DNA from: a virus | Length of the DNA stretch: 20,434 nucleotides | IMG/VR virus record: IMGVR_UViG_3300030116_006490 | Coordinates: 1-20,434 of that record | Strand: one strand, 5' to 3' | Shown here: in pieces, positions 3,515 through 20,260 of the stretch | How the letters are laid out: each line of letters starts with the position of its first letter | Position numbering within the stretch: the first letter of the stretch is position 1 | The notes under the pieces: generated by a model | Database searches by the model: none | Told to the model about the DNA's origin: nothing | What the model saw: the letters and a program-made list of their open reading frames with translations, nothing else | Program-made: the position numbers and the translations under genes

Positions 3515-3636
3515 TTAATACTTGTAAGTTCTTTTTCTTGTCTTACACCACGGTAAGTTAGATCGACCTTGTTAGTCTGCTTTGCTTTGTTTCTGTCGGT
3601 GTCATAGATAACACCACGGTATGTGACTTTTGCCAT
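3511..3636 (-). CDS. DUF4278-like short peptide (41 aa)
   Basis: ATG at 3636, TGA at 3513-3511. The peptide begins MAKVTYRGVIYDTDRNKAKQ and later contains LTYRGVRQEKEL. The repeated (L/V)TYRGV unit is the hallmark of DUF4278, a family of small cyanobacterial and cyanophage proteins of unknown function. A good Shine-Dalgarno, AGGAG at 3648-3644, lies 7 nt before the ATG. Upstream sits a glutamine-II-type (Downstream-peptide) aptamer, a motif known to precede short ORFs of 17-100 codons, so this gene is the likely regulated target. It is followed with ATGA overlap by the 28-aa membrane peptide. Confidence 0.85.
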   Translation of the reverse strand: MAKVTYRGVIYDTDRNKAKQTNKVDLTYRGVRQEKELTSIK

Positions 3637-3669
3637 CGGTTTTCTCCTGTAGTAGTAGGGGTTTTTAAT

Positions 3670-3712
3670 CCCGTTCCTTCAGTCGGCATTTGCGTCCCCG
3701 TAGGGATGAACG
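3670..3712 (-). ncRNA. Glutamine-II (Downstream-peptide/glnA-type) riboswitch aptamer B
   Basis: Minus-strand RNA from 3712 to 3670. P1 is CGTTC (3712-3708) with GAACG (3676-3672). P2 is TCCC (3706-3703) and GGGA (3698-3695) around a UACG tetraloop. The joining strand GACGCAAATGCCGA and the run GAAGGAACG match the conserved core of glnA/Downstream-peptide RNAs as I recall it. CC(G) at 3686-3684 could form the pseudoknot with GG just 3' of P1. After it, GGG (3672-3670) could instead pair with CCCC (3661-3658), a possible switch before the AGGAG at 3648. The downstream short peptide gene is the expected context. Related RNAs bind L-glutamine. Confidence 0.8.
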
Positions 3713-3714
3713 AA

Positions 3715-3945
3715 CCCGTTCCGTGTCGGCTTACTTGCGTCCAATAATAAAAGCATCACATTCACCTTCAACTTTCGTACGAAGGTAATCTATTAGGTAC
3801 TCGTGTGCGTCAGAGTTTAGATCCCCATCACTGAGTATCTCTATTCTGTTGCGATTCCAATCTGCACATGACATCTCCCAGTGGAAACTATTATGTTCAG
3901 ACAGAAGTGTTGCGAGTAGTGTGAGTTCTATCATTTGGATGAACG
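3715..3945 (-). ncRNA. Candidate split glutamine-II aptamer A enclosing the 67-aa ORF
   Basis: The 5' strand CGTTCATCC (3945-3937) is identical to that of aptamer B and ends 2 nt before the ATG of the 67-aa ORF. The 3' half (3742-3715) reads GGACGCAAGTAAGCCGA, then CACGGAACGGG. It differs from aptamer B mainly in two short joining segments and contains the ORF stop TAA. P1 would be CGTTC/GAACG (3721-3717) and P2 TCCAA (3939-3935) with TTGGA (3744-3740). The whole ORF then forms the P2 loop. The 3' end lies 2 nt from aptamer B, giving a tandem pair. Whether it folds or binds ligand is unknown; it may be a relic of duplication or recombination. Confidence 0.55.
3731..3934 (-). CDS. 67-aa conserved-looking hypothetical protein within a split aptamer
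   Basis: A 67-residue ORF beginning MIELTLLATLLSEHNSFHWE and containing SCADWNRNRIEILSD and YLIDYLRTKVEGECDAFIIG. It has a hydrophobic N-terminus (residues 1-11) followed by a mixed, Trp-containing helical region. No known domain is recognised. The last codons, GGA CGC AAG TAA, are part of a glutamine-riboswitch core sequence. The ATG is only about 12 nt from the predicted transcription start and has no Shine-Dalgarno, so translation would be nearly leaderless. Codon use and the well-behaved amino acid composition suggest a true gene. I recall similar cyanophage small proteins but with no assigned role. Confidence 0.7.
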   Translation of the reverse strand: MIELTLLATLLSEHNSFHWEMSCADWNRNRIEILSDGDLNSDAHEYLIDYLRTKVEGECDAFIIGRK

Positions 3946-3949
3946 TAAA

Positions 3950-3981
3950 GGTATGTTAGCATACCCACACTATATAGTCAA
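3950..3981 (-). promoter_or_regulatory. Sigma70-type promoter with inverted repeat over the -10
   Basis: TTGACT (3981-3976), a 17-bp spacer and TAACAT (3958-3953), with TGC directly before the -10 as an extended element. The predicted start is near 3946, which is the first base before the aptamer strand CGTTCATCC. A perfect inverted repeat GGTATG-TTAG-CATACC (3950-3965) covers the -10 and could be an operator or simply a hairpin. Confidence 0.7.
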
Positions 3982-4012
3982 GAAGTTTTGTAATTTCTGT
4001 TACAATTTTATA

Positions 4013-5526: not shown

Positions 5527-6921
5527 TCAACTACCTCCAGACTCTAGTGCCTTGATACGTGCTTCGAGTGCATCATTCTTTGCAGAGAGTTCCTTAACTG
5601 CATTTATCAGAACAGGAACTAACTTCGAATACTGCATACCATAAGAACCACCTGGATTTATATGAGATATCAACATATCATCAGAGGTATTCGCATATCC
5701 GTGTTCCTTTTCAACCTCTAATTCCTCTTGTGCAATCAAACCAACATTCAATTTAGATTCTTTTTTACTTCCGTCAGGTATACCATCTTCATAGTTCGAC
5801 CTCATATCCCATCTATACGTAACAGGATTTAATTTATTGATCCAAGATAATCCATGAGTAAATGATTCAATATCTGTTTTATCTCTCTTGTCTGAAGTAA
5901 CAGTCCAATCAACCTTAATGTAGGAATTAGATATACTATTATTACCTAGAACAACATTATTATTACTATTAGAAAGCATTCCACTTGGTGAACTACTTCC
6001 ACCTGCTTGATATCCTAATAACAGATTATTATCTGCATCACCTAATGTTGATCCCGTATTTGCAGGACCAATTATAGTATTATATTGTGCTCCGTGCGAT
6101 AAATTTTGACCAGCGACCCAACCAATCCCAATATTATATGATCCTCTAAAGGTATTTGTACCAAGAGTACCACGTAAGGCTAGATAACCAATTGCGATAT
6201 TATTTGCTCCATTTGATTCACCAGAGGTTGTCCTATCCTTATTCAACTGCCACAGAGCTCCGTAACCAATTGCGATATGTCCGTTTGTTTTTACGTTTTC
6301 TGATAATGCTAGTTTTCCAATTGCAATATTATGTCCACTACCAGAACCATCAGTACCACCATTTGAATTCTCAATGGTAAATTTCTTCATGGCACGATAA
6401 CCAATCGCAATTTGACCCTCTATATTATTAGCATCTTCTGTATATGATGACAAAGCTTCCTCTCCAATGGCAACACATTCTACAGCGGTGGTTATATCTT
6501 CAAGAGCACTTCTACCAATTGCAACATTAGTAGTAGACCCACCAGGTTTTGTAGTGAGCATTACAACATTATCATTACTTTTAAGTGTATCAGCAACAAG
6601 TGACGATGCAGTAATGATACCTGAAGTCGCATTAATTGATAGCTCATTAGATGTAATTTTAACGTTTGAATTACTTGATCCTAGAGTTAACGTAACTCCC
6701 GATGTCCCTGTTATTGATCCATCAGCTTCAAATTTAAGATCTACATTATCAGTACCATTTCCAATAAAAATATCTGAAGAAGTATCACCAAAAGAAATAC
6801 CATTATTAGAAGTTAATTCTAAATTTCCATCAGAATCTAACTTGACGGTGCCATCAATATTACTCGACGCATCTTTAAATTCAATTTTTGAACTCGCAGG
6901 CGTAATTAATACATCTGACAT
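5527..6921 (-). CDS. Tail fibre with YadA-head-like repeats and S74 intramolecular chaperone domain
   Basis: 464 residues. Residues 1-125 are beta-rich. From about 130 to 330 there are at least eight copies of a short unit of the form N(I/V)AIGxxAL (VAIGRSAL, IAIGYRAM, NIAIGKLAL, HIAIGYGAL, NIAIGYLAL, NIGIGWVAG and weaker copies), like the head repeats of trimeric YadA-type adhesins. From about 340 the Peptidase_S74 domain begins: TSDKRDK holds the expected Ser343-Lys348 dyad, then NPVTYRW, GLIAQE and a terminal coiled coil (VKELSAKNDALEARIKALES). In characterised phages this domain trimerises the fibre and then cuts itself off. It probably forms a distal receptor-binding fibre. The start abuts the previous stop, with a GGGAGGA Shine-Dalgarno inside that gene's end. 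Confidence 0.92.
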   Translation of the reverse strand: MSDVLITPASSKIEFKDASSNIDGTVKLDSDGNLELTSNNGISFGDTSSDIFIGNGTDNVDLKFEADGSITGTSGVTLTLGSSNSNVKITSNELSINATSGIITASSLVADTLKSNDNVVMLTTKPGGSTTNVAIGRSALEDITTAVECVAIGEEALSSYTEDANNIEGQIAIGYRAMKKFTIENSNGGTDGSGSGHNIAIGKLALSENVKTNGHIAIGYGALWQLNKDRTTSGESNGANNIAIGYLALRGTLGTNTFRGSYNIGIGWVAGQNLSHGAQYNTIIGPANTGSTLGDADNNLLLGYQAGGSSSPSGMLSNSNNNVVLGNNSISNSYIKVDWTVTSDKRDKTDIESFTHGLSWINKLNPVTYRWDMRSNYEDGIPDGSKKESKLNVGLIAQEELEVEKEHGYANTSDDMLISHINPGGSYGMQYSKLVPVLINAVKELSAKNDALEARIKALESGGS

Positions 6922-9456: not shown

Positions 9457-9626
9457 TATTCTATATCCTCATCCTCAATTACCTCTAAATCTTCATCTAC
9501 AGTAGATAGTCTTATAGTTCTCGAATCACTATCCGACGATATTATCTTAAAGTCTTGTTCTTCAAAATCACTGTCTAATACTTCAATTTGATTGGAATTT
9601 GTTATTTTAAAAATCATACGTCCCAT
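9456..9626 (-). CDS. Acidic 56-aa protein between fibre genes
   Basis: ATG at 9626, TAA at 9458-9456. It begins MGRMIFKITNSNQIEVLDSD and ends VDEDLEVIEDEDIE, giving a very acidic chain (about a third Asp and Glu) with only a few basic residues. The start overlaps the giant fibre stop as TAATG, with GGAGGTGGAG a few nucleotides upstream, and its own stop overlaps the next ATG as TAATG. Both junctions argue for a real, coupled gene. It could be a small assembly chaperone or fibre-associated protein, by analogy with small genes beside fibres in other myoviruses, but no homology is recognised. Confidence 0.75.
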   Translation of the reverse strand: MGRMIFKITNSNQIEVLDSDFEEQDFKIISSDSDSRTIRLSTVDEDLEVIEDEDIE

Positions 9627-9946
9627 TAGTACTCCACCTCCATTTTTTCGACATCTTTTCTTTCTCCAAATACTGTATAAAAACAGTTGATGTTTCCATC
9701 TTCAGAGCCTACAACCACTGTATTATCATATATATCTATCACCTTATGTAGGGTAGATTCACTTCCGATAGGAGTTAAATTAACGGTAATTGTATCTTCA
9801 TCAACTAATCCTGTCCAATAATCTGGAAGTTCAATCTTATTATTATCTTTCAACCTTCCACGAACATAAACTCCATTTTCTGGACCTTCTAATGATCCAT
9901 GACGAAGTTTCATTCCTTCTTTGGTTGGATGATCAATTACGAATGA
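9626..9946 (-). other. Conserved C-terminal domain of the giant fibre
   Basis: Encodes the last 107 residues. Landmarks are HPTK, LRHGSLEGPENGVYVRG, LPDYWTGLV, TVNLTPIG and VFGERKDVEK. It is non-repetitive and I recall close matches at the end of many cyanophage fibre proteins, so it is likely the trimer-forming or receptor end rather than another repeat. Confidence 0.7.
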
Positions 9947-12900
9947 CTTAGTTGTTGCGGCGAATGAACCATTAACCTGTAATAGATGAGTTGGATTTGT
10001 TACACCGATACCAACTTTTTTACCACTAGTAAAAGCAATAATCTCTCCACTTGGGTTATCAATTGTAATTCTTGGAGTACCAGTACCATCAACTTTGATA
10101 CGATGTTGGAAACCATAGGTTCCCCAGTTTGTAGTCGCACCTGTCCAGTTTTGCGATCCAATAATTAGATATGGTTTGTCCTGATTAGCAGCATAAAGAA
10201 CGTTCTGAACTAATATTCCACCATCATCCTTTGGAGAAGATCCATTATCTATATGAAGTCTTTGAGCTGGATCATCATTTCCAATACCAATATTACCAGC
10301 AGAATCTACGGTAAAAGTTTTTCGGTTTCCAGCATTACTCTCGACGGCAAAAGATTTTCTACCTGCGGTATTATCTTGATCAACAATTAAGAAATCTGTG
10401 CCAGCACCCGTAACAAAAGATTTAATATATGTTCCTGTGGGTATAAATCTAGCATCATAGTGTTGATCACCACCAGAATCATCAGTGTCGTAAAATTCAA
10501 ATCTAGCAACTCCAGTGCCATATGAATCAGTGCTTTTCTGGACTACATGTAGTTGGTGATCTGGACTATCAGTTCCGATACCAACTACGCCAGTAGGAGC
10601 ATCTGCATTCATTATAATGTTCTTGTTAGAATTCTTTAACAGAATATTTGCCCGATCTGCTTGATATCCACCAGAACCTGATAGAAGTCTTAAATCACCA
10701 TTTGCCTGTCCTATAAGTGTCTCTTGTCCTCCTCCAGTAGAATTTGGATTTATATGAAGTGCTCCAGAATTATTACCTTTAATTAATACTGATGATGAAC
10801 CTGTATATACCTCAAATTTCTTGGATGTACTAGTAGTTCCGATACCAACATCACCAGAAAAATAACCATCTCCATTAGTCTTCACCCAGAAAGTATCAGC
10901 TAATGTTGCTGTGCTACCAGCAAGATTATTAGGTCCTGTACCTTCTGCTGCTCTAAACGCATATGTTTTAGCTACATTAGTATAAGGATCCAACACCATG
11001 AAAGCAGAGTTATAGGTATTATCAGTCCTGTAATCATTCATATTACGAACAACAACACCACATCTCAATGAAGAGACTCGAAGATCAACATTAGTCGCAT
11101 AAGTTCTTCCACCAGTGGTGACGTTATTACCAAAAGAACCAGCACTGATGGTCGTCACACCAGTAACACTTAATTCACCACTGGCACCGATGCGAAATGC
11201 TTCACTACCATTAACTTGAAATTGTAGAGTATCAATATTATGATCGTAACTAATTTGACCAGCATTAGTATCACCTGGATCACCAAACATTATACGATTG
11301 CTCTTATTCGCTGGTGATAGCATCTGTATAATAGTATGATCACTATTTTCTGCTACCATAACAGCATTACTATCAGCAGTAACACTACCAGCACTACCGT
11401 TCATTACATGAAAAATGCGATCTGGATTATCAGTTCCGATACCGACTTTATAATCAGATTTAAGATTTAATACATCTGTGCCATCAATTCTAAATTTAAT
11501 CGCATTACCTGTTTGGAATTTGAAGTAATCACTATTATCGTCAGTTGGTGGAGAATACAACTCCATAAATCTGTGACCAGCGGTTGAACCTTGGTAACCT
11601 CCCCATTGCTGTATAATTTTATTAAGTCCATCATGTGTAACTTTAAGTCTGACATCACTGTTAGTAACAGTTCCAAAACCAACATTACCATTTCCAATTA
11701 AATTACCATCAATATCTAATCTTGCTTGTGGATTTGTAGTTCCGATACCAACATCGCCAAGTAGATGTCCACCAAGACCAGATTTTAAGTAACCAATCTG
11801 AATTGCAGAGTTTCCTGATCGTTTTGCTGTTCCATCAGAAACAAAGTTCCATGTTCCACCTGTTCCATAATTTGCAATATCACTATGCCAGATATGATCT
11901 ATATTATTTGCGTTTCCAACTTCAGCATGAGAGATCAACATATTATTATTGAAATTAATATCTCCTCTAATATCTAATTTGTGTAAAGGAATTGAGCTGT
12001 TTATACCAACATTACCATTTTGATTTACTCTAATTCTTTCAGTGTCAGTTCCATTGAATCTTGCAAATATTCTTAATGGAACATTACCTCCAAGTAAATC
12101 ATCAGTATCGATTCTGAATCCATAGTCATTATTTGCAGAAGCAAGATATAAATGAGGTGTTGCATCACCATCTTTTGGTCCGATATGTAATTGTGCACTA
12201 GGATTATTAGTTCCGATACCAACATTACCACCTGTCTGAATACGCATTCTTTCAATAATATTAAAACCAGAATTAGTTCTAAAAATTAATTGACCTTTAC
12301 CCTGTGTGTGATCTGCAGCTGGATCTTGTGCAGCTATCTGCGCCAGGGTATATGGTGCATTTGTGCTATTATCAAACTGCAACATTGATGTATCATTGGT
12401 GAGACCTGTTCTTGCACCACGTATTTTGATTAGTGCATCATAACTAGAAAGTGCAGATGTCTCAACTGTTAATGTTGCAGTATTGGGTCTACTAATCGTT
12501 ACATCATTGTTAAATGTTGCAGCACCTTCAATTTTAGAAGTTCCGACAACATGTAAATTATTACTTGGTGTTGGAGTTCCAACACCAATACTATCCTGAA
12601 ACTCAACATTATTAATAAACGTAGATATACCAGTTACTGATACACCAGCTCCAGTTACATGAATACCATTTCTTGCTGTGATAAGTCCTATGGCATCTAC
12701 ATTCGTTACGTCTTCATATGTTAATGTTCCTGCGATTGATACGTTTCCAGTGAAGGTAGAAACACCAGATACATTTAAATTAGCAAAATTTACATCAGCT
12801 GCACTAAATCCTGCAGCTGCATTACGAATAACTACAGTATTTCCAGCAGCACCGTTTGCCGTAGATTTACCATCTAATAAATCTGCGTTTAAATTTGTTA

Positions 12901-15900
12901 CCTTTGTTGTGGATGCGACTACGAATGGTGCAGTTCCTGTTGCTACTGTTGATTCGAATGATGTAGCAGTCACGACTCCACTAATTTTTGCATCACCAGT
13001 AACATGAAGTTTTGATGTTGGGTTCGTATTTCCGACACCTAATCTACCAAGTGATGAAACAAAAAGCACATCACTTGGAGAATCTCTATGAATTCTCAGC
13101 ACTGCTCGTTTTGTAGAATCATTAATTCCACCAATTCGAACTTCATTTTGAGTATCATAGAAACTAAAATGTGCTCCGTAAGTAGCGGCAGTCGGATCAA
13201 CAATTCTTAAAGAAACAACATTACCAATACCAGGATCTGCAATTGTTAAAGTATCCTTTGCATCACTAGTTCCAACTGCTAGTGAACCACCAGCACTTAC
13301 ACGAGCTTGTTCGGCACCTTTAACATTAACTACGAATGCAGGGTTTGTGGTGACAGAATTATAATCAACATCAAATGCTAAATTACCAACAGAAGAGTCC
13401 GCATTAATTCGATGATGAGCTCCAGTTCCACTATCACTCATCGTAATTCTTGGTGTTCCAGAGTGTATATGTAAATCCGTTAATGGACTAACAGTTCCGA
13501 TACCGACTTGACCACTCGTTACTTTTAAAACTCCAGCTATAGCCGTATCACCCTGCCCATTAACTGTTAATAATTCTTCAGAACCCCAATGATTAATCGT
13601 AAATAAATTATCATTACTACCAGCCGCTCCAGAATACTTATATCCAATAAATGCTGTATTTTTGACACTTCTTTGTCTTCCTAATAATATTATATTTTGC
13701 TGCCCAGCTGTTATATTTGGGGTTAGGGCTTGCATTGTATGAATAAAACTAGCAGATATATTGTTATCAACTTGTAGACTTGGTGTGTTAGCCAATCCAC
13801 CTTGATCTGTAATCGTCACACTACCATCATTACTGACACGAAATCTTTCTTTAGAACTAGTTCCATTTGATGTAAATATTGCATACCTCGAATCAATATT
13901 TGCGTCTGTTGCACCAGTTGCCACATTTGTAGAACCAGTATTCACATCAGCTGCCTCCCATGTACCAAGAGACACATCAGCCATACATTTAGTCATGGCG
14001 TAATTTAGTTCATACTTTATCCAAATCTCAGCTTCTGTGTTACTATTTCCCAACTTATAAATTACCTTTTGAACACCAGGTCTAGTATGAGATATGCTAT
14101 GGAAATGACCATGCATGGTCTCATCCGCAGCGAGTGCAAGGTAAATTACTGTCTCACCAGCAACGTTCTCACCTGAGTTAAATGTTGCAGTTCCAAAAAT
14201 TGTGATTTTTGCTCTAGATCCTACAGTAAAACCTTTCCAAGTACCAATTTTGAAATAATTTTGTGAAGTATCAGTAGATCTTCTACCACCAAGGTGAGTA
14301 CGAGTTAATGCAGTTCCACCATCTGATTTGATGCGAAGTCTTTCTGTACCAGTAGTTGTATTAACTGCTGTTGGAGTTTTACCCGTAGAACCAGTTAAAA
14401 ATATCAAATCAGTTGGCATATCTGTTGCAGAATCAAAACTATCACTAGCAACTGCAGATATGGATGCTGTATATAAAATATTTGCCTCAGTTCCATCTGT
14501 ATGATTACCACCAAAAGCAACAGCACCTAACATGCTACCGTTATTAATTTTATCACCTGTTCTGTTTTTAGCTAAATGTATCTTTCCACCAAAACCTTGA
14601 GAGCTATTACCATCACTTCTTTTACCAATAACTTCTATGTAAGGTGCTGATTGAGCAGCATTGGAGTCTAATAATCTAATTCCTTTTTGAGTATCTCCTC
14701 TTGCAAGAATATCTAATTTTGCTTGTGGAATTGCACTTCCGATACCAACATTAACATTTGCAATTAAATTAGAAGAAAATGTTGCTGTATCTGAAACATT
14801 TAATACATCTAGATCTGTATCACCATCTACATCTAAATCACCACCGATAAATATGTTTCCAGTAGGAGAGAGACCACCAACGACATTTCCGTAAATTGTG
14901 TTTGCAGTTAAAATACCAACCGCTAATGTTGCAGTATTACCTGCAAGAGCATTGGTTCCAATTGGATCATTAGTTCCGATGCCAATATTATTGGATGTAT
15001 CTAAAGTTATAGCAGGACCTAATCCAGCAGCACGAGCTGCATTTCCTTGAACATAAAACTTATCTGTATTTCCGTCAGCAACGAAGTCAAAGAAAGCGTT
15101 ACCATCATCCAGATTTCTCATTGAAAGAATTACTGCTTTGGTTGCTCCTTTTGTTATAAATGAAGCTATTCTCCTAGCGTCACCTGGATCTACTCCTGGT
15201 GTGAAAGTAGCACCATGAGTGTGAGAAACTGTAAGAGTATTTGATCTTGTGGTAGTATCACCAGAATTATTGTCTATCCAAACCGTTCCATTTTCAACAT
15301 GAAGTTTTGCATCTACACTATCAGTTCCGATACCAATATCACCTGCTGAATTGATACATAATGCATCTATAGTATCAACTTGAAATTTAAATGCGTTTCC
15401 TGTTTGGAATCTAAAGTAATCATTTCCAGAGTCAGTTGCTGGAGAATACAACTGCATAAATCTCTGGCCAGTAGTTGAACCTAGATTACCTCCCCACTGT
15501 TGTAATGTTGTATTGAGTCCATCCTTATGAACTCTAAGTCGGGCACCAACTGGAGTATCTGTTCCGATACCAACATCACCATCTTTTGTGATGCGAAGTT
15601 TTTCACTAACTCCTGAGTTACTACCAGTCCAAAATCCCATGCCATGAGCTGCACCTCCTCCATCATCATAAGCATATAAACCTGCTCTTCCTTCACCAAG
15701 AGTTATACCAGTATAAATGTTGCCTGTAGTGTTACTTGGATTCTTAGCACGAACCCAAAGACCTAAATTTTTACAATTAGTGGTGTTTAATGTAGCAGTA
15801 TCTATGGGTGTTGCATAAATATCTAATGCTGTTTGTGGATTATTAGTTCCGATACCAACTTTACCTTGATGTGTGATGCGAATAAACTCATCAAATACAC

Positions 15901-18900
15901 CATTACCTTGACCACCTATTAGATAATTACCATTATTCTCATTTGCTCTCGTATAAACATAAGTATTTCCATTTATATTTGTTAATTGAGTATATGATGT
16001 ATTACCAGCACCAGCCGAACTATTCAAATCTGTTATTCTAAAATTAGGGGAGTTTGACGCAACATTTAATAGTGCTTGTGGAAGATTAGTTCCGATACCG
16101 ACATAACCAATCTGATTAAGAGTTATTTGGGGATCAGGATCATCCGTGCTTGGATTTGAATATCCAATGTTAAATGTAGAACTAGTATCAATGTATTGAC
16201 TATAAGTAGCAGCACTATTTGTACGACTTATTCTAAAACCATCTGTATTGTTATCTGTTCCCTGTCTTAAATGTAACTTTGTTTGTGGACTATTAGTTCC
16301 GATACCAACATTACCTGTGTCGCTTTTGATTATTATTCTTTCTTCAGTCTGATCAGTTGCTAATTTTAAATCTTCATTGAAGGAACCGATTATACCTTCA
16401 TCAACAATTAATCTTTTGTTAAAATAAAACCTTTGTCTATCTGTATAAAAATGAGCATAAGATGTATTTTGTGAACCAACATCAATATATCCTGAAGGTG
16501 ATATTATTCTTAATGCTTTACCCGTACCTACAGTTGTAGAACTTTGTAATGTTGTTCCAGTACCAACCTCAATACCACTTCTTGCTGTTATGATACCAAT
16601 TGAATCTATATTTGTTACGTCTTCGTATGTTAATGTACCAGCGATTGATACATTGCCTTGGAAGGTTGCAATACCAGATACATTTAAAGCACCACTTATA
16701 TCCAATCCACCGTCATTAATTGTAGCTCTGGTAGTATCTGCTGTTTTGAATAGAAAGTCACCACCACCAGTAAAGTCTATAAAAGTGGTAATGTCGTTAT
16801 GATAATAATACTTACCAGAACGCATATAGCTAGTTCCCTGTACTGCATTTGCAGCAAGAACATTTGTACCAGGATTGAATGTCAATCCATTGTTATCTAC
16901 TTGTAATGTATGGTATGAATTACCTCCATCTGGATCTTCATCAGTAAATATAATATTGTAAGCCTTATTATCATCCTCAGATTCATCAACATAAACTTTA
17001 TCAGCACCAGTCGCAATACCTGACAAAGAACCACTGAACGATGATGCAGTTAAGATTCCTGATACAACAGCTCCTGTTGATGTTGTTCGAAATTTAAGAC
17101 TACTACCATCATAAATCTCCACTCTGCCAAACTGCAAGGCAATTCCTCCAGGTCCACCACCTGCATTACCACTATCAGCAGGAGTATCAGGACTAATATA
17201 GATATTTCTAGCGGATTGTAAATTTAGATCACCAGTTGCTGTTGTATGTCCTACATAAGAATCACCAATCTTGTGATATATTTGTAAATATTGATAATTA
17301 CCGAGTTGCAATTTATAAGAATTACTATCTAAGTTTATATTTTTCCAAGCTATGATTGCATCATCACCATTATTCCCAAAAAACGTAGAAACACCACCAA
17401 CAGTCATATTCGTGCTAATAGCAACTGTGGAAGCATTAATGTTTATATTTCCTACGTGTCCTGTGATGAAACTATTATTACTTGTGTGTCCTATTTCAAG
17501 TAGATTCCCAGATGTGTTAGTAAGAAATATAGATTTACCATCAGTAGAACTACTTTGATTAAGAGTCTTTATAAAATTAGTGGATTGAAGAGTTCCTGCT
17601 ACTGATACTCCCCAATTTGCTGTGTTTAATTTTGTTGAACCTCCATATTGTAAGACTGCCTGACCAGAACCACCAGACCCGATTGTTGCAATACCAGAGA
17701 CATTTAAGTCTCCATTTAATCTTGAATTTCCATGTACATCTAATTTTGCACCTGGATCATCAGTTCCGATACCAACATTACCATTCTGGTCAATAAGCAT
17801 CGAAGATGATGGAGTCGAACCTGTTCGTAAATCTATTCCATTTGTATTATTTGAGATTCTGGCAGTATTATTTTCATTCCCGAATATTACCTCACTAGGA
17901 GAAGCACCACCTCTTTTTAAAAGAATTTGAAATGCAGAATCTGCTACTAAATGAAGTTTTTCTGTGGGATTATTAGTTCCGATACCAACATCACCATCTG
18001 ATGTAATGCGAAGTTTTTCAGTGGCATTAGCATATCCAACTGATGTTCCAGTTTTAAATACAATACCACCACCAGAAACAGAGTTAGATAATACTAGTTC
18101 GTTATTTTCAGTTCCAACCGCAGATTGATCTTGTCCTCCATCTTGTCTGAATATTATTCTTGGATTGTCAGATTCATTACTGTTATCCGTATCTGCTTCA
18201 ATTATTAATTCACAATCACCAGATGTTCCAGAAGAAATATGTAATTTACCTGCAGGATTATTAGTGTTTATACCAACATCACCATCTGATGTGATGAGAA
18301 CTTTTTGGCCACCACCACTAAAGATTGAAGTTTTTGTTGCACTTAAAATAAAATTTCCTTGGTTATTTCTTAACTGTATATTTTCATTGTTATCTGTATC
18401 AACTAATTGTATACGAGGATCAGAATCACGTATATCAAGTTTTTGACTTGGATTATTAACTCCAATACCAATATCACTATTCGCAATAATTTTACCAGTG
18501 AATGTTGAAACTCCAGTAACACTTAAATTACCTTTTAATGAACTACCTCCATTAACCTCTAACTTGTGTGATGGAGCTTCAGTTCCAATACCAACGAAAC
18601 CACCTGATGTGAATCGAACTTTTTCACCACCAGCAATACGGAATTCCATATGATTATCAGTATGGAAATATTGAATTCCTGCAGCAGATGAATTAACAGA
18701 ATCTCCAAAAAATAAATTTCCAGTTGCACTCTGACCAGAGAGTATTGTAATTCCCTGATTACCACTTGATTCTCCAAGCACAAGATTATCAGCATTTGCA
18801 TTTGCAGAGATACCTGCTGCATTACCAATTGTTACATTATCATTGAATGTTGATACACCAGATACATTTAAGTTGTCTAATTCTGTATGACCATCTACAT

Positions 18901-19759
18901 CTAAATCACCACTTAGTGCTACATTACCACTTGTATCCTTATTAACTAATTCTATCCAATTACCACCATGAGCATAATATCCTTTACCTGTAGAATGAAC
19001 ATGGGCAAACATACCGTGATACGTGTTCGCATTAGGTAATGCTGCTAGATTTGCATAAAGAGATGGTATCTTATTCTCCCCTGCTTGTGCCTCAATTACA
19101 CCACCAGTAACACGAATACCACTCTGAGCAGTAATTAATCCAACTGCATCTATATTAGTTACGTCTTCGTATGTTAATGTCCCACCAATAGAAACATTAC
19201 CATCAAACTGAGCATTTCCTACAAATGTTGAAACACCAGAAACATTTAAATCATCTAATTCTGTATGTCCAAATACATCTAATTTTGATGATGCTGATGG
19301 ATTATAAGTTCCAACACCAAGACTACCAGTTGTTTGATTGGTTATGATATTTCCATCATGAGTAAATATTAATTCATTCTGGCCAGTTCCACCATAGTTA
19401 AGACTGAATTGAGAGTTAGAAGTATTACTACCAAAGAACATTTTAAGAGTCTCACCAGCACCATTTTCAAAATGTAATCCTGATGTATTACCACCTGTTC
19501 CTTGAAGATGCAACAATGATTCTGGACTATTAGTTCCAATACCAACTGAGTTCAAGTAACTTATTGAAGATGCACCATAACTCTCCGTCCATGGTGTAAG
19601 ATTACTTACAGTTGTTGCTATTCCAACTCCACCAGTATCTCTCTCAGTAAAAAGAGAACCATCATAAGTATTAAGCGCTAATTCTCCTACCTGTAAATCT
19701 GTTAACTGTGGTCTCTTTCCAGATACCGCAGATCTTTTTATTCGTATTGGCGTCGCCAT
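9626..19759 (-). CDS. Giant repetitive tail fibre protein (3377 aa)
   Basis: A single intact 10.1-kb frame. The N-terminus (MATPIRIKRS, then KRPQLTDLQVGELALNTYDG at about 15-34) is typical of cyanophage fibres, probably the attachment end. The body holds about 27 copies of VGIGTxxPxxKLxV, each usually followed by G or N and a new beta module, and three copies of LTYEDVTN(I/V)D with xGLITAR (about 195, 1040, 2345). Residues about 1406-1460 and 2703-2760 are paralogous (QQWGG, YSPxTD, YFxFQTGN). The last 107 residues (from KSFVIDHPTKEGMKL, with LEGPENGVYVRGRLK and CFYTVFGERKDVEK) match a C-terminal domain common to cyanophage fibres. It has no S74 domain. It probably forms a long beta-rich trimeric fibre that touches the host. 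No Shine-Dalgarno is evident before the ATG. Confidence 0.93.
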   Translation of the reverse strand: MATPIRIKRSAVSGKRPQLTDLQVGELALNTYDGSLFTERDTGGVGIATTVSNLTPWTESYGASSISYLNSVGIGTNSPESLLHLQGTGGNTSGLHFENGAGETLKMFFGSNTSNSQFSLNYGGTGQNELIFTHDGNIITNQTTGSLGVGTYNPSASSKLDVFGHTELDDLNVSGVSTFVGNAQFDGNVSIGGTLTYEDVTNIDAVGLITAQSGIRVTGGVIEAQAGENKIPSLYANLAALPNANTYHGMFAHVHSTGKGYYAHGGNWIELVNKDTSGNVALSGDLDVDGHTELDNLNVSGVSTFNDNVTIGNAAGISANANADNLVLGESSGNQGITILSGQSATGNLFFGDSVNSSAAGIQYFHTDNHMEFRIAGGEKVRFTSGGFVGIGTEAPSHKLEVNGGSSLKGNLSVTGVSTFTGKIIANSDIGIGVNNPSQKLDIRDSDPRIQLVDTDNNENIQLRNNQGNFILSATKTSIFSGGGQKVLITSDGDVGINTNNPAGKLHISSGTSGDCELIIEADTDNSNESDNPRIIFRQDGGQDQSAVGTENNELVLSNSVSGGGIVFKTGTSVGYANATEKLRITSDGDVGIGTNNPTEKLHLVADSAFQILLKRGGASPSEVIFGNENNTARISNNTNGIDLRTGSTPSSSMLIDQNGNVGIGTDDPGAKLDVHGNSRLNGDLNVSGIATIGSGGSGQAVLQYGGSTKLNTANWGVSVAGTLQSTNFIKTLNQSSSTDGKSIFLTNTSGNLLEIGHTSNNSFITGHVGNININASTVAISTNMTVGGVSTFFGNNGDDAIIAWKNINLDSNSYKLQLGNYQYLQIYHKIGDSYVGHTTATGDLNLQSARNIYISPDTPADSGNAGGGPGGIALQFGRVEIYDGSSLKFRTTSTGAVVSGILTASSFSGSLSGIATGADKVYVDESEDDNKAYNIIFTDEDPDGGNSYHTLQVDNNGLTFNPGTNVLAANAVQGTSYMRSGKYYYHNDITTFIDFTGGGDFLFKTADTTRATINDGGLDISGALNVSGIATFQGNVSIAGTLTYEDVTNIDSIGIITARSGIEVGTGTTLQSSTTVGTGKALRIISPSGYIDVGSQNTSYAHFYTDRQRFYFNKRLIVDEGIIGSFNEDLKLATDQTEERIIIKSDTGNVGIGTNSPQTKLHLRQGTDNNTDGFRISRTNSAATYSQYIDTSSTFNIGYSNPSTDDPDPQITLNQIGYVGIGTNLPQALLNVASNSPNFRITDLNSSAGAGNTSYTQLTNINGNTYVYTRANENNGNYLIGGQGNGVFDEFIRITHQGKVGIGTNNPQTALDIYATPIDTATLNTTNCKNLGLWVRAKNPSNTTGNIYTGITLGEGRAGLYAYDDGGGAAHGMGFWTGSNSGVSEKLRITKDGDVGIGTDTPVGARLRVHKDGLNTTLQQWGGNLGSTTGQRFMQLYSPATDSGNDYFRFQTGNAFKFQVDTIDALCINSAGDIGIGTDSVDAKLHVENGTVWIDNNSGDTTTRSNTLTVSHTHGATFTPGVDPGDARRIASFITKGATKAVILSMRNLDDGNAFFDFVADGNTDKFYVQGNAARAAGLGPAITLDTSNNIGIGTNDPIGTNALAGNTATLAVGILTANTIYGNVVGGLSPTGNIFIGGDLDVDGDTDLDVLNVSDTATFSSNLIANVNVGIGSAIPQAKLDILARGDTQKGIRLLDSNAAQSAPYIEVIGKRSDGNSSQGFGGKIHLAKNRTGDKINNGSMLGAVAFGGNHTDGTEANILYTASISAVASDSFDSATDMPTDLIFLTGSTGKTPTAVNTTTGTERLRIKSDGGTALTRTHLGGRRSTDTSQNYFKIGTWKGFTVGSRAKITIFGTATFNSGENVAGETVIYLALAADETMHGHFHSISHTRPGVQKVIYKLGNSNTEAEIWIKYELNYAMTKCMADVSLGTWEAADVNTGSTNVATGATDANIDSRYAIFTSNGTSSKERFRVSNDGSVTITDQGGLANTPSLQVDNNISASFIHTMQALTPNITAGQQNIILLGRQRSVKNTAFIGYKYSGAAGSNDNLFTINHWGSEELLTVNGQGDTAIAGVLKVTSGQVGIGTVSPLTDLHIHSGTPRITMSDSGTGAHHRINADSSVGNLAFDVDYNSVTTNPAFVVNVKGAEQARVSAGGSLAVGTSDAKDTLTIADPGIGNVVSLRIVDPTAATYGAHFSFYDTQNEVRIGGINDSTKRAVLRIHRDSPSDVLFVSSLGRLGVGNTNPTSKLHVTGDAKISGVVTATSFESTVATGTAPFVVASTTKVTNLNADLLDGKSTANGAAGNTVVIRNAAAGFSAADVNFANLNVSGVSTFTGNVSIAGTLTYEDVTNVDAIGLITARNGIHVTGAGVSVTGISTFINNVEFQDSIGVGTPTPSNNLHVVGTSKIEGAATFNNDVTISRPNTATLTVETSALSSYDALIKIRGARTGLTNDTSMLQFDNSTNAPYTLAQIAAQDPAADHTQGKGQLIFRTNSGFNIIERMRIQTGGNVGIGTNNPSAQLHIGPKDGDATPHLYLASANNDYGFRIDTDDLLGGNVPLRIFARFNGTDTERIRVNQNGNVGINSSIPLHKLDIRGDINFNNNMLISHAEVGNANNIDHIWHSDIANYGTGGTWNFVSDGTAKRSGNSAIQIGYLKSGLGGHLLGDVGIGTTNPQARLDIDGNLIGNGNVGFGTVTNSDVRLKVTHDGLNKIIQQWGGYQGSTAGHRFMELYSPPTDDNSDYFKFQTGNAIKFRIDGTDVLNLKSDYKVGIGTDNPDRIFHVMNGSAGSVTADSNAVMVAENSDHTIIQMLSPANKSNRIMFGDPGDTNAGQISYDHNIDTLQFQVNGSEAFRIGASGELSVTGVTTISAGSFGNNVTTGGRTYATNVDLRVSSLRCGVVVRNMNDYRTDNTYNSAFMVLDPYTNVAKTYAFRAAEGTGPNNLAGSTATLADTFWVKTNGDGYFSGDVGIGTTSTSKKFEVYTGSSSVLIKGNNSGALHINPNSTGGGQETLIGQANGDLRLLSGSGGYQADRANILLKNSNKNIIMNADAPTGVVGIGTDSPDHQLHVVQKSTDSYGTGVARFEFYDTDDSGGDQHYDARFIPTGTYIKSFVTGAGTDFLIVDQDNTAGRKSFAVESNAGNRKTFTVDSAGNIGIGNDDPAQRLHIDNGSSPKDDGGILVQNVLYAANQDKPYLIIGSQNWTGATTNWGTYGFQHRIKVDGTGTPRITIDNPSGEIIAFTSGKKVGIGVTNPTHLLQVNGSFAATTKSFVIDHPTKEGMKLRHGSLEGPENGVYVRGRLKDNNKIELPDYWTGLVDEDTITVNLTPIGSESTLHKVIDIYDNTVVVGSEDGNINCFYTVFGERKDVEKMEVEY
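11480..11652 (-). repeat. Internal duplication in the giant fibre gene, copy 1
   Basis: This stretch resembles 15382-15543 in both DNA and protein (shared landmarks: HKDGLN or THDGLN, QQWGG, GSTxG, RFM, LYSPxTD, YFxFQTGN, KF). The copies are about 3.9 kb apart, consistent with duplication by unequal recombination. Confidence 0.75.
15382..15543 (-). repeat. Internal duplication in the giant fibre gene, copy 2
   Basis: Partner of 11480-11652, with the same order of motifs and an adjoining VGIGT unit on the distal side. Divergence between the two copies is moderate, so the event is not recent. Confidence 0.75.
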
Positions 19760-19808: not shown

Positions 19809-19816
19809 TATTTATC
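19809..19816 (-). promoter_or_regulatory. Late-type promoter box of the giant fibre
   Basis: GATAAATA on the minus strand, followed by C, matches the NATAAATA late motif of T4-like cyanophages. It is 49 nt upstream of the fibre ATG, right where a structural gene needs a late promoter, and overlaps the last codon of the HNH gene at 19815-19816. Confidence 0.65.
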
Positions 19817-20186
19817 AGGTTAGATTATTTCTTCTTGGTTTATATAAGAATAAGTTTTTAACAGGATCAGGTTTCATCCATTCTTGAATTTTGTTATATC
19901 GATTCATATTAAAAAATTCCTGATTAAAATACCACTCTTCCCAAGATTCATGTCCCTTTCTTTGATTACAAGTGTTACAACAGCATACAACATTCTTTGT
20001 AAAATCTGTTCCACCTTTACATCTAGGAACAACATGATCGATTGTCAGATTATTTTTATTCCCACAATAGGCACATTCATAATGCCATTTTTCTTTTATA
20101 TCCCTCCTCCATAATCGTTTTGCCTCTGCTGAACTCGTTGTCTGTAAATTAAAAACATAAGCTTTAGATGACTGGAGAATACCCAT
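19815..20186 (-). CDS. HNH endonuclease (putative homing endonuclease) downstream of psbA
   Basis: From the ATG at 20186 the protein has 123 residues. An HNH fold is clear: CAYCG (Cys38, Cys41), LTIDHVVPR with His51, then NVV with Asn65 and CNTCNQRKG (Cys70, Cys73, Asn74), the CxxC pairs binding structural zinc. A longer frame from a TTG at 20231 would begin in the T-tract of the psbA terminator, so the ATG is preferred, though no good Shine-Dalgarno precedes it. Free-standing homing endonucleases beside psbA are known in cyanophages (F-CphI of S-PM2 cuts psbA); whether this is the same family cannot be judged here. It lies between psbA and the giant fibre gene. Confidence 0.88.
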   Translation of the reverse strand: MGILQSSKAYVFNLQTTSSAEAKRLWRRDIKEKWHYECAYCGNKNNLTIDHVVPRCKGGTDFTKNVVCCCNTCNQRKGHESWEEWYFNQEFFNMNRYNKIQEWMKPDPVKNLFLYKPRRNNLT

Positions 20187-20229
20187 ATAAAATTGTAAGT
20201 TAATTTTATTTAGAAAAAGTCTAATAGAC

Positions 20230-20260
20230 AAAAAAATACCCCGAAATTTTTTTCGGGGTA
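20230..20260 (-). terminator. Rho-independent terminator of psbA
   Basis: A 10-bp stem TACCCCGAAA/TTTCGGGGTA (20260-20251 with 20246-20237) with a 4-nt loop, followed on the minus strand by seven T (20236-20230). It lies 27 nt after the psbA stop and separates psbA from the HNH gene. Confidence 0.93.

Follow-up and report, generated by a model that had tools for sequence, protein, structure and literature searches.

The window analysed here is a 20,434-nt stretch of viral DNA (IMG/VR record IMGVR_UViG_3300030116_006490, positions 1-20,434), and the element under study lies on its minus strand. Read in that direction, the locus consists of TATATA, a hairpin, CGTTC, UCCAA, ORF A with UUGGA inside it, CGCA, AGUAA with the stop codon, a 13-nt linker and GGAACGG (3722-3716), followed by GGTT, CGTTC, a short hairpin, CGCA, a second 13-nt linker, GGAACGG (3677-3671), a Shine-Dalgarno sequence (SD) and ORF C. 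There are thus two 5' and two 3' aptamer halves, here called 5'A, 3'A, 5'B and 3'B. The features are listed below with the evidence for each.

3976-3971, minus strand: TATATA, T4-late-type promoter-like, upstream of 5'A
3965-3950, minus strand: 5' hairpin GGTATG-CTAA-CATACC, presumed transcript start (sequence)
3945-3941, minus strand: 5'A, CGTTC, predicted 5' strand of outer P1, partner 3676-3672 (covariation, unconstrained minimum free energy fold, MFE)
3939-3935, minus strand: UCCAA, predicted 5' strand of P2, immediately 5' of the AUG, partner 3744-3740 (covariation across ORF families)
3934-3731, minus strand: ORF A, 67 aa, phrog_6471, nested in the P2 arm (ORF list, dN/dS)
3744-3740, minus strand: UUGGA, predicted 3' strand of P2, within the final codons of ORF A (covariation, MFE)
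3739-3736, minus strand: CGCA core segment of the outer module (invariant in alignments)
3735-3732, minus strand: AGUA, 5' strand of loop E, overlapping the UAA stop of ORF A at 3733-3731 (Rfam alignment of CGCAAGUA..GAAGGAACG in relatives L107 and L095)
3731-3724, minus strand: AGCCGACA, predicted 5' strand of P3, common to both modules, partner 3688-3681, two A.C mismatches (linker lengths, covariation)
3721-3717, minus strand: 3'A, GAACG, predicted 5' strand of inner P1', partner 3712-3708 (covariation in a variant class)
3716-3713, minus strand: GGTT, apical loop of the inner helix, first base always G (spacer table)
3712-3708, minus strand: 5'B, CGTTC, predicted 3' strand of inner P1' (covariation)
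3706-3695, minus strand: inner P2' hairpin UCCC-UACG-GGGA, the slot of ORF B in most relatives (socket counts)
3694-3691, minus strand: CGCA core segment of the inner module (invariant)
3688-3681, minus strand: UGCCGACU, predicted 3' strand of P3 (linker covariation)
3680-3678, minus strand: GAA, 3' strand of loop E (Rfam alignment)
3676-3672, minus strand: 3'B, GAACG, predicted 3' strand of outer P1 (covariation, MFE)
3648-3644, minus strand: AGGAG, SD for ORF C (sequence)
3636-3511, minus strand: ORF C, 41 aa, DUF4278 (PF14105 match)

The 9-nt repeat CGTTCATCC described in the initial annotation is exact at 3945-3937 and 3712-3704, and it is the sole 9-nt direct-repeat family in 3600-4000. 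The 3' half was likewise found twice, at 3742-3716 (GGACGCAAGTAA..GGAACGG) and 3697-3671 (GGACGCAAAT..GGAACGG), sharing an exact core of GGACGCAA (13 nt) plus GGAACGG; the string GGACGCAAGT reported for both copies reads GGACGCAAAT in the second. The complementarity of TCCAA (3939-3935) to TTGGA (3744-3740) and the 67-aa ORF (3934-3731) with no SD were also as described. The second socket of the window holds a short hairpin and no ORF B. Transcription had been placed at about 3946, which is not supported, as TATATA (3976-3971) and the hairpin (3965-3950) lie upstream of that position and are both kept in relatives. Of 356 relatives, 325 had TA[AT]ATA at a median of ~32 nt upstream of the first aptamer half, compared to 100/356 shuffled sequences, and 347 had a 5' hairpin with an energy of -4 kcal/mol or lower, compared to 43/356 shuffled. 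With both elements upstream in most of these 356 relatives, nothing pointed to a start downstream of 3945. We propose that this locus serves as leader to a late operon of the phage.

By their substitution pattern, the nested ORFs are genes under purifying selection: their median dN/dS was 0.12-0.39 over five length classes, and that of the ORF A family, found in 61 phage records, 0.12-0.13. Because dN/dS is low, we infer that ORF A is translated, from a UTR with no SD. The AlphaFold model of ORF A had a pLDDT of 62 and a pTM of 0.44. The usual occupant of the second socket is ORF B (~55 aa, phrog_504), which sometimes has a non-conserved GGAG in the inner-helix loop. An SD-like string of some kind precedes 152 of 431 nested ORFs, and their starts have no conserved SD. 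A DUF4278-like character had been ascribed to the nested peptide, but this domain belongs to the downstream ORF C (3636-3511), whose match to PF14105 scored 25.8 bits against a cut-off of 25.3; a downstream ORF with an SD and a YRG motif was present in 330/355 relatives.

The gene order A-B-C is fixed, and among the distinct ORFs (146 A, 281 B) none is shared between slots. On this slot exclusivity we reject cassette recombination, in which the repeats would be attC-like sites and the resemblance to an aptamer secondary. Repeat-flanked genes that fold, with differing ORFs in the sockets, would fit such a scheme, but the fixed order, the Rfam match with its conserved ligand core and the lack of any integrase noticed nearby run against it, and we give it almost no credence. 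Comparison of the A and B protein family profiles was weak (23% probability), and we do not claim common descent. As a separate observation, a TCEQFDWL protein family apparently occupies socket A in L098 and socket B in L182, a rare slot crossing. Elsewhere in the window, a single 3377-aa ORF of VGIGTN-type repeats (9626-19759, minus strand) probably encodes a very long fibre or structural protein; a 464-aa ORF near it (5527-6921) ends in a Peptidase_S74 chaperone domain, and an HNH endonuclease gene (PF14279, PF01844) lies immediately upstream of the giant ORF at 19815-20231 on the minus strand.

The conservation of the locus was assessed in 240 loci picked by protein similarity and not by RNA: 80 close IMG/VR relatives, 80 distant relatives via a syn9 protein and 80 via ORF B. 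The complete double element was present in 228, and the other 12 were either truncated at a contig end or interrupted by an inserted gene. Since these protein-found relatives retain the whole arrangement and the exceptions are explained by cuts or inserts, the flanking of the ORF by aptamer halves is not due to chance. All 80 close relatives show the halves, one contig beginning within the first half, and the 80 distant relatives also have them, the exceptions being contig ends and two CAACG variants. The suggestion that the arrangement is a relic of recombination is thus at odds with its conservation, and no 67-aa ORF was found in these loci without flanking halves other than at contig-end cuts or inserted genes. 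Isolates carrying the element include P-HM2, P-SSM4, syn9, S-TIM5, S-CAM1, S-IOM18, Syn19, S-SSM7 and P-RSM4, and the S-CREM1 record annotates the corresponding span as glnA. When a covariance model of the double element was searched against 201 genomes (200 of the host family and a reference), the only strong match was a phage contig in a single-cell genome; apart from that contig, the double form was not found in the 200 host-family genomes. Two 26-bit matches of ~46 nt each were also obtained, one of them being a lone glutamine-II-type RNA. As far as searched, therefore, the double element is specific to phages and found in marine cyanophages. The glnA RNAs found in the hosts are single and ordinary, with a short P3, CGTTG/CAACG and CGGAAGTA. 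In the window, the 63-bit hit of covariance model R1 starts at 3753 inside ORF A and does not place 5'A across the ORF, so that it supports only the inner module, P3 and the 3' side.

The initial annotation read the halves as an aptamer A, opened by the ORF, in tandem with an intact aptamer B. Covariation indicates instead that they do not form two tandem aptamers: the outermost halves pair, the first 5' with the last 3' (5'A:3'B, outer P1), as do the two in the middle (3'A:5'B, inner P1'), and P3 is common to both. At pair 5:36, the bases in 5'A, 3'A, 5'B and 3'B were CGCG in 284, CCGG in 70, TCGA in 8 and TGCA in 1 of 363 parsed double units, which are related sequences, their counts not being independent events. 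The exchanged topology follows from the finding that the 5'A:3'B and 3'A:5'B pairings were never violated in these units, while the within-unit pairings 5'A:3'A and 5'B:3'B were broken in 79. The three distinct compensated states occur with several loop sequences and socket contents, and 190 distinct rows were also examined for the topology at this pair. In each P1, four of the five pairs are invariant and so carry no information on topology; a pattern search yielded no variants at pair 4:37. In the outer helix, CGTTC/GAACG changes to CGTTT/AAACG at a few loci. In the inner helix, a search for non-G36 variants showed that a 3'A of CAACG always goes with a 5'B of CGTTG (115/115), complementarity that holds even with ~590 nt inserted in the inner loop. 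The two helices vary independently (L492). Compensatory changes were thus found in the P1 pairs and also in those of P2, the two sets of pairs in which the initial annotation expected them.

The linkers between CGCA and GGAACG provided a second line of evidence. They are equal in length in 360 of 365 units (10/10 in 243, 13/13 in 114, 11/11 in 3, unequal in 5), and their P3 pairs change in concert, as AGTCG/CGACT, AATCG/CGATT, ATTCG/CGAAT and AGTCA/TGACT. In the 13-nt class, whose P3 has two A.C mismatches, ACTC goes with xxAG and ACAC always with AATG; the window is of the ACAC/AATG kind. The AGUA and GAA around P3 correspond to loop E of glutamine-I RNAs. Unconstrained MFE folding, which for excised elements is biased toward pairing their ends, placed the outer helix in 353/365 units, with within-unit helices appearing in no more than 5. 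The window's own MFE is the same fold, outer helix included; its arms are all of the common CGTTC/GAACG type, and the exchange there rests on homology, P3 covariation and energy. RNAalifold applied to hairpin-only relatives recovered outer P1, P2, inner P1' and P2' unaided, and the five-helix model had a covariation score of 0.233 in these relatives, compared to 0.082 for shuffled and at most 0.059 for slid alignments.

A model of two separate aptamers in tandem, with pairing confined to the halves of each and an ORF in the P2 loop of one, would agree with the order of the halves, with the Rfam score of the window's second unit alone (32.5 bits) and with the window's energetics, where forcing the within-unit helices costs only ~4 kcal/mol above the MFE. 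It would not account for mismatches in 79/363 units under within-unit pairing against 0/363 under exchange, for linkers A and B that pair mutually and match in length, for Rfam alignments that span both units in hairpin-only relatives, or for the near absence of within-unit helices among the MFE structures. In the variant classes this model is contradicted by covariation and P3, and we regard it as very improbable. The outer module corresponds to the glutamine-I (glnA) three-way junction with loop E, and the inner module to a circular permutation of it that shares P3. We are highly confident of this nested, doubled glutamine-I-type fold.

The contents of the two P2 arms, which we call sockets A and B, were hairpin/ORF in 171, ORF/ORF in 142, ORF/hairpin in 31 and hairpin/hairpin in 21 of 365 units; slot B was long, with an ORF, in 313 and a short hairpin in 52. 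As all four combinations occur, the same arm can accommodate either a gene or a hairpin loop. The earlier idea of an ORF sitting within an arm of the aptamer was borne out, as the helix formed beside its start and stop codons covaries. Measured between the bases after CGTTCA and those before CGCA in 58 representatives clustered by protein, P2 with an ORF had a mean uninterrupted helix of 5.98 bp, compared to 4.32 bp (sd 0.16) when strands were re-paired randomly and 4.90 bp (sd 0.17) when re-paired within stop class (0/3000 each). Double changes were present in 5 of 7 P2 pairs, with a covariation score of 0.223 compared to 0.101 shuffled and 0.020-0.110 slid; examples are UCUUAUG/CAUAAGA in S-TIM5 and UCUCAC/GUGAGA in S-IOM18. 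The distance from CGTTCA to the start of the AUG is 4-5 nt in 409/431 nested ORFs, which puts the AUG within or beside the P2 helix, and the stop codon falls at or just before loop E and the core, overlapping loop E in the window. The core nucleotides are kept whether they are coded as GRK-stop, DAND-stop or DAKAD-stop or are located past the stop, that is, across reading frames and outside the ORF, which demonstrates selection on the RNA.

These regularities bear on whether the nested ORFs are passengers, the riboswitch controlling the downstream DUF4278 gene only and its loops tolerating coding inserts as group I introns do. The YRG ORF and its SD follow the element in 330/355 relatives whatever fills the sockets, and other genes have been inserted in the element (the inner-loop ORF of L394, the HNH-like ORF of L123), as such tolerance would predict. 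The AUG spacing and the siting of stop codons at the core show more regularity, however, than tolerance would call for, and the interior sequence of ORF A supports P2, whose formation dropped from 116/142 to 24/100 when that interior was shuffled. We therefore consider a passenger role rather unlikely.

Several inserted genes were observed around the element. Inner P1' is normally capped by 3-4 nt; a 192-aa ORF (L394, 2256-2834; also L227, L412, L414, L461, L471 and L474) sits in this 3-4 nt loop as an insert of ~590 nt, the helix strands staying complementary. It is GIY-YIG-like by eye, with no Pfam match. An HNH-like 182-aa ORF in L123, L399 and L409 (identity by eye, no Pfam match at 0.001) lies upstream of CGCAAGTAGAGCATAAGGGAACGG with its own promoter-like TATAAATA, just downstream of a normal element, and is flanked by a copy of the first 5' half and a copy of a 3' half.

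The element had been assigned to the glutamine-II class. Both Rfam models that the initial annotation named do match the window's second unit, but both scores are below the cut-off: RF01739 (glnA) gave 32.5 bits, covering the second unit only (gathering cut-off 35), and RF01704 gave 20.0 bits (gathering cut-off 33). Hairpin-only relatives pass the RF01739 cut-off over the whole double element, with 38-39 nt inserted in P3 (L107, 43.6 bits; L095, 41.0 bits), while five relatives scored 25.9-32.8 bits against RF01704, all below the cut-off. The L107 contig also carries a PhotoRC-II RNA at 1021-1116 (RF01717, 57.1 bits). The ORF/ORF forms of P-HM2 and syn9 had no Rfam match even at E 0.5; since the models did not detect these ORF-carrying forms in either isolate, such forms are probably overlooked by annotation pipelines. 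As in glutamine-I RNAs, P1 is CGUUC:GAACG (outer 5'A:3'B, with the compensatory CGTTT/AAACG), a covarying P2 arm with a hairpin or ORF loop follows directly, and loop E and P3 are present, CGCAAGUA..GAAGGAACG being aligned by Rfam and the linkers covarying. For the glutamine-II P2 pseudoknot helix around GGAACGG, most model pairs are non-standard in the window, and this missing P2 together with the sub-cut-off score rules out glutamine-II membership. The outer CGCA (3739-3736) corresponds to C17-A20 of the glutamine-II structure, where G18 contacts the ligand (PMC6698751). The equivalents of the contacts C1, G18, C39 and G40, the triple G2>G18:C39 and the pair C19:G41 are invariant in both modules, G41 nearly so, and these nucleotides are common to glutamine-I RNAs too.

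Based on this core, L-glutamine is probably the ligand. At high L-glutamine, the double aptamer would be stabilised and P2 and P2' would hide the AUGs, leaving the nested ORFs untranslated; at low glutamine, or with ribosomes already loading, the arms would open, and a ribosome on ORF A would dismantle P2, loop E and part of P3. Because the stop codon lies at the core, a terminating ribosome must open the aptamer, and translation should therefore oppose ligand binding; the mutual exclusion of translation and folding proposed in the initial annotation would follow from this anatomy. The ordinary target would be the DUF4278 gene downstream, which has its own SD and is probably regulated through the same fold. 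Blocking of nested-ORF translation by glutamine-stabilised folding seems the most likely outcome. The direction of the switch is uncertain, since an ON mechanism is reported for the closest glutamine switch characterised so far (PMC6698751), and we rate an OFF direction for the nested ORFs at slightly below an even chance. No anti-aptamer or terminator has been demonstrated at the element, and occlusion of the AUG may be weak, given that a P2 of ~5-7 bp must close a loop of 130-230 nt. We only tentatively suggest that the aptamer contains the genes it controls, the ligand closing over their start and stop codons and translation reopening the sensor.

A real fold might alternatively bring stop and start together so that terminating ribosomes re-initiate on that ORF or its successor, or might protect the mRNA. 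The start and stop regions of one ORF pair, ORF A has no SD and its stop lies ~30 nt before the AUG of B, and the transcript as a whole is strongly structured (z = -3.0), all in keeping with such roles. Neither role needs the ligand-contact nucleotides and CGCA, which are nevertheless invariant in both modules, and the same fold is kept in 21 units without any ORF; we find this explanation unlikely. Taken together, the doubled fold, its sockets and the inferred glutamine mechanism are, with fair likelihood, the best overall explanation of the locus.

Riboswitches are known as leaders controlling an adjacent gene, whereas here complete conserved genes lie within the sensor domain. The element is conserved across T4-like cyanophages, including isolates with laboratory hosts (P-HM2, P-SSM4, syn9, S-TIM5), and a link from host nitrogen state to phage late genes is for this reason directly testable. 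No earlier description of the element was found in the open-access literature searched, and searches of open-access papers for ORFs in riboswitch loops and for HEARO yielded nothing relevant.

Among known systems, the element most resembles the glutamine-I glnA RNAs (RF01739), with P1 CGUUC:GAACG, a P2 arm, loop E (AGUA/GAA), P3 and GAAGGAACG on the 3' side. It differs from them in that P3 continues into a circularly permuted second module instead of a small end loop and in that the P2 arms can house an entire gene; the phage core is CGCAAGUA, compared to CGGAAGUA in host glnA. With glutamine-II RNAs (RF01704, PDB 6QN3) it shares the CGUUCA-P1-CGCA and GGAACGG cores and a site before small ORFs, but not the glutamine-II P2. 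Group I introns may carry protein ORFs in their peripheral loops, and HEARO/IscB RNAs likewise hold a gene in a structured-RNA loop; the genes in those ribozymes and guide RNAs encode nucleases, whereas here a putative ligand-sensing aptamer holds genes for 50-70 aa proteins of unknown function. The available part of Weinberg 2010 (PMC2864571) reports that glnA RNAs can occur in tandem, similarly placing two glutamine-aptamer cores side by side; that part describes them as tandem only and does not mention strand exchange, a common P3 or nested genes. The 6QN3 crystal contains a strand-exchanged glutamine-II dimer, which was ascribed to crystallisation, and a two-piece glutamine-II form binds glutamine (PMC6698751). 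In the phage element the predicted exchange is intramolecular and fixed by covariation, making the doubled fold a natural, covariation-supported counterpart of that crystal dimer.
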